A stretch of DNA of 44,573 nucleotides from Candidatus Haladaptatiplasma halalkaliphilum (GTDB lineage: Archaea; Thermoplasmatota; Thermoplasmata; Halarchaeoplasmatales; Halarchaeoplasmataceae), in NCBI GenBank assembly GCA_019594055.1, contig JAFDTY010000004.1, positions 1 to 44,573 on the forward strand, given 5' to 3'. Shown one piece after another: positions 33,292 to 44,376 of this stretch. The notes under the pieces are model-generated. The model was not told the origin of the DNA. It did not search any database and saw only the letters and a list, made by a program, of their open reading frames with translations. Each line of letters begins with the position of its first letter. Position 1 is the stretch's first letter. The position numbers and the translations under genes were made by a program.

Positions 33292-34059
33292 TCAACAAAT
33301 CTTACTTATCTCAGATTTAACCCTGGCTAAAGCATTTTCCTTCGGAGGGACATTTTCCATCAAGCTGCTCAGATCCTTATCCCATCTTTTTGCCAGCTCT
33401 TCGCATCTGTCGGAAACAACCGAAGGATCTAGGGAGAGATGGTAAAATTTCAGTTTCTTTTCTACCATATCCCTATCTAGACTCGCTCCGTGTTCTATCA
33501 ACATGTACAGGTCGTAAAGGTCTCTCACCTTATCCCTGGTCATCACCGCACGGATCTTTTCTGCGACTATCTCATCTCTGTCCATCACCCTGACCACATA
33601 GGGGAGCACATCTTTGTATGGGGGGTTTATCTCTTGGACTTCCGGGTCCATAAGGACTTCTTCTCTTCTGCTTATCTCCACCCGGATGGTACAGATACCT
33701 CTGTTATTTCGGTATAAAGGTCCTCGTATCTTCACCCGGAATCCTGCGGTCATCTCCGTATCCGTTAGATTGTCTGTTTCCACCGGAAAATTATAGGATT
33801 CTATGGCTCTGACCACGTTCTCGGCGATGATATCTATGGAAATCTCCTTGTCTTCCGTAAAATCCAGATCTTCACTGAATCGCGACAGCAACCCTATCTT
33901 TTGCAGGGCCGTACCACCTTTGAACACCAGATATGACCCCCATCTTCTCGAAAGGGTGTTCAGCACGATATGTTGAAAATAATCCTTCTCCACATGACCC
34001 AGGGAGAAGGCTGTCACGCCGATATACTTTTTGAGTTCTTCTCTATTCATGGTTACCAC
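33292..34059 (-). CDS. abiEii: AbiEii-type nucleotidyltransferase toxin (copy 1)
   Basis: YLVFKGGTALQKIGLLSRFSEDLDFT; DEIVAEKIRAVMTRDKVRDLYDLYMLI. Confidence 0.9.
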   Translation of the reverse strand: MVTMNREELKKYIGVTAFSLGHVEKDYFQHIVLNTLSRRWGSYLVFKGGTALQKIGLLSRFSEDLDFTEDKEISIDIIAENVVRAIESYNFPVETDNLTDTEMTAGFRVKIRGPLYRNNRGICTIRVEISRREEVLMDPEVQEINPPYKDVLPYVVRVMDRDEIVAEKIRAVMTRDKVRDLYDLYMLIEHGASLDRDMVEKKLKFYHLSLDPSVVSDRCEELAKRWDKDLSSLMENVPPKENALARVKSEISKIC

Positions 34060-37604: not shown

Positions 37605-37690
37605 GTCGTAGAGGTGTTCCCGGATAGGGGCCAGTGCTTCTTCCGGGAGAGGAAGATTTTATATATGGATGTTGCATATCTTTCCTGGTC

Positions 37691-38092
37691 ATGGTCGATA
37701 GTTCCCTCGAATCAAGGATCGTTTCCGTTCTGGACAGGAGAGATGAGATACTGTTCGCCTATCTGTACGGCTCCTTCGCACGGAACACGGCGGACGACAA
37801 AAGTGATATGGATATAGGGGTGTATCTGAAGGAAGGTGAACACGGTGTGTTCTATCCGGAACGATTGGCCCGTGAACTTGAGGAAGTCCTGGATCGTGAA
37901 GTAGATGTGAGGATACTTAACAAAAGGAACATCACCTTTCTACATCAAGTATTGAAGGATGGTAAACTGCAGTTCTGCAGGGATGAGGATAAGAGGGTGG
38001 AATTCGAAACAAAAGTGTACGATATGTATCTGGACATAAAGTACTACCTTGACATGTACAACGAGATAAGGAAAGAGAGGGTCTTGACATGA
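37691..38092 (+). CDS. mntA: MntA-type nucleotidyltransferase antitoxin
   Basis: FAYLYGSFARNTADDKSDMDIGVYL; ATGA overlap with downstream HepT-like gene. Confidence 0.85.
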   Translation: MVDSSLESRIVSVLDRRDEILFAYLYGSFARNTADDKSDMDIGVYLKEGEHGVFYPERLARELEEVLDREVDVRILNKRNITFLHQVLKDGKLQFCRDEDKRVEFETKVYDMYLDIKYYLDMYNEIRKERVLT

Positions 38093-38505
38093 TAGACAGG
38101 GATATCTTTGAAAGTAAGATAGATCTGATGATGAAAAATCTGGAATATCTTGATGAAGTCAAGATGGAGGATTCTGAGGATTTTTTAAGGTCCTTTGAAA
38201 AGATACAGGCAACAAAACATTCTCTGCAGGAAGTGATAGAAGCTTCACTGGATATCGCCAATAATCTGATATCACGCCAGGGATGGCCCAGGGCGGAGAC
38301 CTACGCCGAGATGTTCGAACGCTTGTGTGAAAACCAAGTGATATGTGAGGACCTGAAAGACAAATTGGTGGACATGGCCAGGTTCAGAAATCTGCTGGTT
38401 CATAGATATGGTAGTATCGATGACGAAAGACTCTTTGAGATCTTGCAGGAGAGCCTCGGGGACATACACAGATTCATCGAGGTTATCTATGCTTATATGG
38501 AATAG
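38089..38505 (+). CDS. hepT: HepT-type HEPN toxin (DUF86)
   Basis: RNLLVHRYG (Rx4HxY) motif; four-helix HEPN pattern. Confidence 0.88.
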   Translation: MIDRDIFESKIDLMMKNLEYLDEVKMEDSEDFLRSFEKIQATKHSLQEVIEASLDIANNLISRQGWPRAETYAEMFERLCENQVICEDLKDKLVDMARFRNLLVHRYGSIDDERLFEILQESLGDIHRFIEVIYAYME

Positions 38506-42834: not shown

Positions 42835-43651
42835 TCAATATATCTCAAAGCCTTGTTGTGTTAAACTTATAACGACCTCTTTCTTAACGTCTTCGTACTC
42901 GGGCGGATTGACCAGAAGTACCTTGAGGTCCCTCAACCATTCCTCTTTGGAAATACTTATGGGGACCTCACCGATCCTGTTCACGACCTCCATCTTTTCA
43001 AAGAACAATCCCTTGTTCAACGGTGTACCCTGTTTCAGCAAGAACCAAACATCGTAGAGGTCTCTTCCCTTGGATCTGGAACTCAGGGCGCGCAATTTTT
43101 CCGCAAAGACTTCCTCCTTTTGAAGACCCAAAGCAGAAATCACCCTGACCTCGGGATATTCAAAAAATAGTCTTGTCCATTTAGGTTCTAACAACACATC
43201 TTCTCTTTTCGATATCTCTATGTTGATACTGCCCATGGATTTTTCAGAACCTCTGTAAAGAGGACCTCGATATCTCAACCTTGCGTTGAACGATATATCT
43301 TTATCTTCCACCTTATCGACGGCAGCTTCCACACCGTAAGACATCAGATCGTCTGCAGCCGCATCCATGATCTCATCTATCTTCACTTCATCGTAAACCG
43401 TAAAATCCAGATCTTCGGAAAATCTGTCCAAACCAAAAGCGTGTTTCAGGTAAGTTCCGCCTTTGAATACCAAAGAGTCGCCTCTACGATAAAGCTCATT
43501 CAAGAACAAGGATTGGATATAATCCTGTTCAAGTATACGTTTCGGAATTGTCGTTACAATTCCAAAGGTCGGTGGAATTGCAAAGCAATTCCAGCAGATG
43601 CAACGGTAATTCTTTCCTATGGATCTCTCTCAATTGGATTCTTGTTATCAT
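42835..43651 (-). pseudogene. abiEii: AbiEii-type nucleotidyltransferase toxin (copy 2), interrupted by a 49-bp double-hairpin element
   Basis: LVFKGGTYLKHAFGLDRFSEDLDFT; ATG at 43651 overlaps the AbiEi stop (ATGA); frame broken by 43544-43592. Confidence 0.88.
43544..43592. mobile_element. 49-bp double-palindrome insertion (REP/MITE-like)
   Basis: GGAATTGT-CGTT-ACAATTCC, 10-nt spacer, GGAATTGC-AAA-GCAATTCC; removal restores the AbiEii frame exactly. Confidence 0.8.
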
Positions 43652-44376
43652 CTTACATCCCTCTTAACGTATAATTTCCACTCGGAATTCAACACGGATC
43701 CCTTTTGCTTGGGGTCGAGTTTTGTGTAGGTATCGATGAGTTCCTTCAGTTCTCCCTCACGGAACTCTATATCTTTTTCTTCCAACAGATATCCCAAACG
43801 GGAGGCAACTGCGGAGCTTCCGGTTAACACACAGTACTCTATGAGCCTATCCGTATCCAGCTCATCCGATATGGATTCTCGTATCTGAGATATACCTCCG
43901 GAGTACTCCGGATTTCTTAAACAGTCGATCAGGGTCTTCTCCATATCGGAAACTACCACCTTATCATATCTCTCGTACCCGAAGAACAGCGATCTTTTTA
44001 TGGTAATGTACTTGATATTCTGCCCCTGAAGTCGTAAAGGCTTTTTTCTCTTTGTGGTAACAAGGAACACCGTCCGTGGAACTTGATCTGTCATTTTATG
44101 GTAGTGTAAAGCACTCCAGAAAGCTATGTAAGACGGTTGAAATATATGGGGTACGATCTCGTAGATATCGAGTTCATTCCACACCTCGGTCAAGATGTAT
44201 TTGCCTTTTTCCACCCGTTTGACCAGGTCCTTCTCCAACATATTACCGATTATCCGATAAGTATTCTCTTTTGATGTATCCAGGAAACGAACGATATCTT
44301 TGTTTGTGAATACGACCATATCCCTGGATCTGATCTCTGTGATCACCTGAGCTTCCCGCCTAGCGATACTTTCCAT
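43648..44376 (-). CDS. abiEi: AbiEi-type antitoxin (copy 2)
   Basis: N-terminal wHTH (FTNKDIVRFLDTSKENTYRIIGNMLEKDLVKRVEKGKYIL), PSYIAFWSALHYHKMTDQ, paired with AbiEii. Confidence 0.87.
   Translation of the reverse strand: MESIARREAQVITEIRSRDMVVFTNKDIVRFLDTSKENTYRIIGNMLEKDLVKRVEKGKYILTEVWNELDIYEIVPHIFQPSYIAFWSALHYHKMTDQVPRTVFLVTTKRKKPLRLQGQNIKYITIKRSLFFGYERYDKVVVSDMEKTLIDCLRNPEYSGGISQIRESISDELDTDRLIEYCVLTGSSAVASRLGYLLEEKDIEFREGELKELIDTYTKLDPKQKGSVLNSEWKLYVKRDVR

Follow-up and report, generated by a model that had tools for sequence, protein, structure and literature searches.

A double-hairpin repeat that breaks the frame of an AbiEii gene in Candidatus Haladaptatiplasma halalkaliphilum is probably a mobile palindromic element

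A PF08843 (AbiEii) toxin gene on the minus strand of the window (the whole 44,573-nt stretch of Candidatus Haladaptatiplasma halalkaliphilum DNA analyzed here) carries, at positions 43592-43544, the sequence GGAATTGC TTT GCAATTCC - ACCGACCTTT - GGAATTGT AACG ACAATTCC, and the question is what a structured insert does inside this gene. The first-pass annotation had described it as a 49-bp double hairpin that frameshifts the toxin, and had offered a REP/BIME- or MITE-like insertion, RNA-level excision and translational bypassing as explanations. The insert looks like a selfish repeat and not like a hidden intron or a ribosome-hopping signal, and it is considered likely that it is a mobile palindromic REP/RPE-like repeat frameshifting the AbiEii gene of an otherwise intact operon.

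The features of the operon and of the insert are summarized in Table 1. The nucleotidyltransferase motifs of the AbiEii 3' part are intact as judged by reading, and the PF09407 score of the AbiEi-like gene lies just under the curated cut-off. A second AbiEii gene, uninterrupted and with an open frame of 261 aa, is found at 33331-33945 (minus strand), and six AbiEii matches occur in the source genome in all. A nucleotidyltransferase-like gene beside a HepT-like gene at 37634-38505 (plus strand) was judged by reading to be a probable MntA/HepT toxin-antitoxin pair.

Table 1. Coordinates of the interrupted AbiEi/AbiEii operon and of the inserted element.
Feature	Position	Strand	Description
Complete double-hairpin element	43538..43598	-	61 nt, TCTGCT-HP1-ACCGACCTTT-HP2-GAAACG; edges from the uninterrupted orthologues L103 and L109
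Hairpin 1 (HP1)	43573..43593	-	TGGAATTGC TTT GCAATTCCA, 9-bp stem; basis: sequence, fold, family covariation
Hairpin 2 (HP2)	43544..43563	-	GGAATTGT AACG ACAATTCC, 8-bp stem; basis: sequence, fold, family covariation
AbiEii 5' part	43599..43651	-	ATG + 16 codons + 2 nt
AbiEii 3' part	42835..43537	-	open to TGA stop; PF08843 E 1.9e-27 for 42835-43509
AbiEi-like antitoxin gene	43648..44376	-	intact; overlaps AbiEii start (ATGA); PF09407 E 6.5e-4
CCG codon (Pro16)	43604..43606	-	CC at -8/-7 from insertion point: favored target context, hypothetical take-off codon
CCG at right end of element, downstream frame	43543..43545	-	hypothetical landing codon
TGA ending upstream AbiEii frame after read-through of element	43529..43531	-	sequence
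TTG, possible internal start of shorter AbiEii	43507..43509	-	ORF list; 19 nt past TGA 43531-43529

The boundaries of the insert were determined from uninterrupted AbiEii genes, whose comparison the first-pass annotation had itself proposed. The junction reads ...RKELPFHVLEQDYIQS... in the orthologue L103 (G003:C70, from another genus) and ...VPLHILELDYIQS... in L109 (G001:C1), the empty member of the second, paralogous AbiEii group, whereas that of the window reads ...CCGTTGCA-TCTGCT-(49 nt)-GAAACG-TATACTTGAA... and holds 61 nt more. Since both uninterrupted genes are without these bases, the insert extends from TCTGCT to GAAACG; a covariance-model match to it spans 43536-43598 (E 2.7e-17). 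The two hairpins first described are thus present, separated by the 10-nt spacer ACCGACCTTT, but the 49-bp limits were too narrow, and while the second stem does have 8 bp, the first has nine, as T43593 and A43573 also pair. The proposal that exact removal of 49 nt restores the native AbiEii N-terminus did not hold: the residues LLKR retained by that deletion are encoded by the ends of the element and are absent in intact homologues, so that it fails to recreate the native protein. Removal of 49 or of 61 nt opens the frame alike, because both lengths are 1 modulo 3, and the frameshift of the toxin gene stands with the corrected length. When an 81-nt segment with the hairpins was folded, its z-scores against shuffled sequences were -5.4 as RNA and -4.9 as DNA, with 0 of 200 shuffles as good. 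The first palindrome would not be expected to occur in the window by chance.

Further copies of the first palindrome were found elsewhere in the source genome, and dispersed copies of the insert, sought at the suggestion of the first-pass annotation, are present across this genome and its relatives. A pattern search of 61 genomes detected double hairpins in 14 of the 16 members of the family to which the window belongs and in one other genome. A covariance model built from 20 copies yielded 84 strong matches (E<=1e-7) in all 16 genomes of the order (haloalkaliphilic Thermoplasmata), 12 of these matches in genome G010. Sampling of 88 genomes across 25 further families of the class gave no match. 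The copy census was drawn from these searches and from fetched stretches of the genomes. A DNA-pattern scan covering 85,488 species gave matches in this archaeal group and in a few isolated bacterial contigs, the hosts being named as Candidatus Saliniplasma, Candidatus Halarchaeoplasma and other Thermoplasmata metagenome-assembled genomes, some of them labelled Great Salt Lake-like (GSL). The pattern was present in no viral contig, and phage records held nothing matching the locus. In Rfam, the window yielded a single tRNA, and eight element loci yielded no family above the gathering threshold. Titles and abstracts of the open-access literature on the lineage or on archaeal palindromic repeats contained no description of the family, which is apparently restricted to one order of haloalkaliphilic Thermoplasmata and new to the literature.

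Members of the family are about 55-66 nt long (the shortest copies in transposon genes have 54 nt) and share the layout TCTAC-(HP1)-TCGA-NTTT-(HP2)-GAAAC(A/G), in which the connectors around the two hairpins are constant. In 50 of the 84 parsed copies HP1 is preceded by TCTAC, whose complement reads GTAGA; the two ends, TCTAC and GAAAC, do not form an inverted repeat. The 12 base pairs of the model were standard in 98.7% of cells when 92 distinct matches were compared, and 55 doubly changed cells were counted in the stems versus 6.4 in shuffles and far fewer with the partner slid; as the alignment was fitted to the covariance model, these values lean toward structure. Parsing copy by copy gave two perfect stems in all but 8 of the 92 and distinguished 46 HP1 arms and 59 HP2 arms, so the stems are hypervariable, the self-complementarity of the parsed arms being a consequence of the parsing procedure. 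The left neighbor of the element is another hairpin in 25 of 76 copies, and some copies sit within longer hairpin arrays. Arrays of at least three hairpins with recurring connectors were seen at L074 (G009:C53), L080/L082 (G000:C55 and C104), L067 and L068, some of them bounded by longer inverted repeats. In three genomes (L226, L086, L087) the DNA immediately upstream of tRNA-Gln(CTG) holds a related hairpin, with the opening bases of the tRNA (AGCCCCGTA) repeated almost identically on either side of it.

Empty and filled sites side by side suggest that the elements are mobile. As had been noted at first, the window element is without a target-site duplication; none of 4-8 bp was found in 72 copies, and the similarity of the element tail to the left flank, taken as a duplication signal, was at chance level. 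The preferred insertion site lies 6-7 nt downstream of CC: among 51 isolated copies (which include the three in AbiEii genes and are not all independent) a CC ended at -7 in 12 and at -8 in 6, 18 together, against a background of about 2 of 51 per position, and this CC is already present in the empty AbiEii orthologues. A symmetric preference for GG on the right flank was considered and dropped, the signal being weak (5 of 47 at +7, 4 of 47 at +8).

Sequence searches pinpointed no transposase that would mobilize the repeats, whose mobility is deduced from the comparison of sites. Y1_Tnp matches occur in 13 of the 16 genomes; of the two incomplete assemblies concerned here, that of the source genome (G000) has only 30-aa fragments at contig ends, and that of G010 has none. 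Of ten Y1 loci inspected, one (L156) had a TCTAC-hairpin nearby, and a link of the repeats to intact Y1 transposase genes was rejected, the association being inconsistent among these loci. Comparison with L072 (G010:C45) showed that in L059 (G008:C52) a single element links a transposon's left end with the end of its transposase gene, as would result from recombination between two elements with loss of the middle.

Coding sequence is avoided. Among the 68 copies with sufficient flank, 17 (25%) had, on one strand, an open frame of 50 aa or longer to the left as well as to the right, versus 65% of random control positions in the same loci; for random positions in the window the value was 80%. 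The host genes encode transposases of several types, TnpB-like proteins, a Zn-ribbon transposase protein, AbiEii, AAA_16-TPR and RHS/YD-repeat proteins (RHS and TnpB were named by motif, Pfam giving no match for the pieces tested), and no housekeeping gene was seen among them. Inserts in transposon genes have any length (54, 58, 61 and 62 nt), those in the AAA_16-TPR gene (63 nt) and in RHS/YD-repeat genes (60 nt, where the site could be fixed) are in frame, and both orientations relative to the host gene occur. General splicing or bypassing would make the elements common in ordinary genes; avoidance is seen instead, and together with the host spectrum it is the pattern of disrupting inserts. 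Two transposase genes, the IS481-like genes at L066 and L072, were read along their whole length. They were considered as carriers of tolerated introns and rejected, since further lesions (frameshifts, a stop or a large deletion) mark them as dead. RHS-type genes of two genera, L058 (G003:C3) and L071 (G007:C26), share the insertion site of an in-frame copy of 60 nt, with RFIS(R/N)D before it and GMVDGPNMY after it. In L083 (G009:C82) an in-frame 54-nt element brings a TAG at its end into a TnpB-like gene, and a second element follows the gene, ahead of the right-end hairpin of the transposon.

The same codon of AbiEii has been struck repeatedly. Three AbiEii genes among the 16 genomes carry a sister element there. 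It has 61 nt in the window gene and 62 nt in the other two, namely the G010 orthologue and a paralogue from the source genome whose sequence is split between contigs C8 and C49; both lengths are frame-breaking. The genes fall into two groups with about 41% protein identity; each has empty members too, and therefore the site was struck at least twice or the element was copied between paralogues. The paralogue belongs to a second AbiEi/AbiEii operon (G000:C8:1-110 and G000:C49:1-98; L076, L077) with the contig break inside hairpin 1 of the element, a break that may reflect mixed alleles in the population. At the contig end G010:C63 (L056) a fold-back with AbiEi sequence in both orientations is probably an assembly artefact.

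Some features of these genes count against an inactivating repeat, namely the strikes on one codon in two paralogue groups, the flanking halves of all three filled genes, which are free of other stops and frameshifts, and a dN/dS of 0.20 (dS 0.29) between the filled orthologues of the window and G010, lower than expected of an inactivating insertion older than their split. If the insertion did predate this split, selection persisted afterwards. Over 62 nt the two elements show 3 substitutions and a single indel, a divergence below that of the gene's synonymous sites, which speaks for separate insertions at a later time or for constraint acting on the element. Changes by codon position (11/7/11 on the window branch, 5/6/22 on the G010 branch) make the former look relaxed and the latter constrained, and in the 5' part three of four changed codons, a small sample, are synonymous. 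The evolutionary evidence would thus be compatible with function as well as with its loss.

Under the preferred reading, a non-autonomous mobile palindrome of two hairpins would insert without target-site duplication, favoring positions 6-7 nt past CC, and its copies would for the most part be retained in intergenic DNA, in transposon genes or, when in frame, in genes that tolerate them. The copy in the window frameshifts AbiEii and would most likely abolish the full-length toxin, loss of toxin function being the simplest reading of the sequence.

Selection on the 3' part could also be maintained by a shorter AbiEii, re-initiated at TTG 43509 after the upstream frame has ended. The TGA at 43531-43529 with an in-frame TTG 19 nt on, and the nucleotidyltransferase motifs kept in the 3' part, agree with this; however, the TTG is a candidate start only, the conserved E-x-DY helix would be lost, and the mainly synonymous changes in the 5' part (three of four codons in that small sample) look as if it were still translated within the protein. 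Re-initiation is therefore considered unlikely.

Programmed bypassing, with release at the CCG of Pro16 and re-pairing at its counterpart in the element's right end, would give ...KELP-KRILEQDY..., a product as long as the intact orthologue whether 61 or 62 nt are inserted. The CCG/CCG match is in register in all three filled AbiEii genes, their halves are intact with a dN/dS of 0.20 between two filled copies, and translation in yeast mitochondria compensates for 81 inserts that disrupt the frame (PMC5009743). The match is, however, sufficiently explained by the CC-N6 rule at the target together with the element's own CC-N6 right end; coding sequence is avoided, both orientations occur in genes, the inserts seen in large non-transposon genes (RHS, AAA-TPR) are in frame, and past the take-off codon there is no stop-codon arrangement of the phage T4 gene 60 type. 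Bypassing at this locus is accordingly held to be very unlikely. The wider proposition that the repeats are prokaryotic counterparts of mitochondrial byps, in which a CCN-to-CCN hop would restore frame and length at any insert length and leave AbiEii functional or tunable, is regarded as highly improbable.

Little credence is likewise given to reversible switching at the DNA level, in which precise excision in some cells would let selection still see intact alleles. Intact and interrupted alleles do stand side by side among relatives, and the break of the paralogue within the element (C8/C49) could reflect mixed alleles, but contig breaks are common at such repeats, and we know of no enzyme that excises such elements. 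RNA-level removal by the archaeal tRNA splicing endonuclease, which the archaeal host and the short, structured insert might suggest, is scarcely credible: no bulge-helix-bulge motif (a shared 4-bp central helix with flanking helices) was found at the three AbiEii junctions, and the elements lie in both orientations in other host genes. An assembly artefact, conceivable for a metagenome-assembled genome in which many copies lie near contig ends, can practically be dismissed, as the same insert was assembled independently at the same site in G010 (L056) and in the paralogue (C8), and the empty sites in relatives agree with the deduced boundaries.

The dispersed copies and empty sites support the REP/BIME- or MITE-like option among the explanations first offered. 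The GTAG- and CGTC-tagged REP superfamilies are short hairpins with 5-13 bp stems, whose families differ in stem and loop with complementary changes; they frequently form dimers and clusters and are mostly extragenic (some are intragenic), and the GTAG families are associated with Y1 transposases (PMC3733652). The present elements are like REP/BIME in their short hairpins and complementary stem changes, in the clusters (25 of 76 copies with a hairpin as left neighbor) and in being mainly extragenic (25% versus 65% of controls between open frames). TCTAC, GTAGA on the other strand, may correspond to the GTAG tag, although it would then lie on the opposite side of the hairpin from the usual REP layout. 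Unlike REPs the elements form a constant two-hairpin unit with fixed connectors; of Y1 transposases the source genome, in its incomplete assembly, shows only fragments. The terminal inverted repeats and target-site duplications of MITEs are absent. MITEs derived from IS200/IS605 (such as the haloarchaeal PATEs) have hairpin ends, are not known to leave a target-site duplication and have a fixed tetra- or pentanucleotide target; the first two traits are shared, whereas the CC-N6 context is loose. Rickettsia palindromic elements (RPE) are mobile palindromes of about 150 bp inside protein-coding genes, largely in frame (PMC10969869, PMC3733652); in-frame copies add a peptide here too (RHS 60 nt, AAA-TPR 63 nt), but the elements have about 60 nt and those in AbiEii (61, 62 and 62 nt) are frameshifting. 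Yeast mitochondrial GC clusters, fungal double-hairpin elements and sponge RHEs are dispersed short hairpin repeats thought to be mobile (PMC4478555, PMC2800124); likened by description, the archaeal elements are similarly dispersed and merge into arrays, while those are organellar. Mitochondrial byps and the gap of phage T4 gene 60 are short structured frame-breaking inserts bypassed in translation (PMC5009743), which the AbiEii inserts resemble in being short, structured and frame-breaking and in the matched codons on both sides, but coding sequence is avoided here.

To such repeats the family adds stems that stay self-complementary despite unusual variability, and a target rule that can be detected. 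The repeated strikes on the same AbiEii codon constitute a natural test of the tolerance of a gene to a frame-breaking hairpin insert; if the toxin were active, mobile bypassing elements would exist beyond mitochondria and phages.
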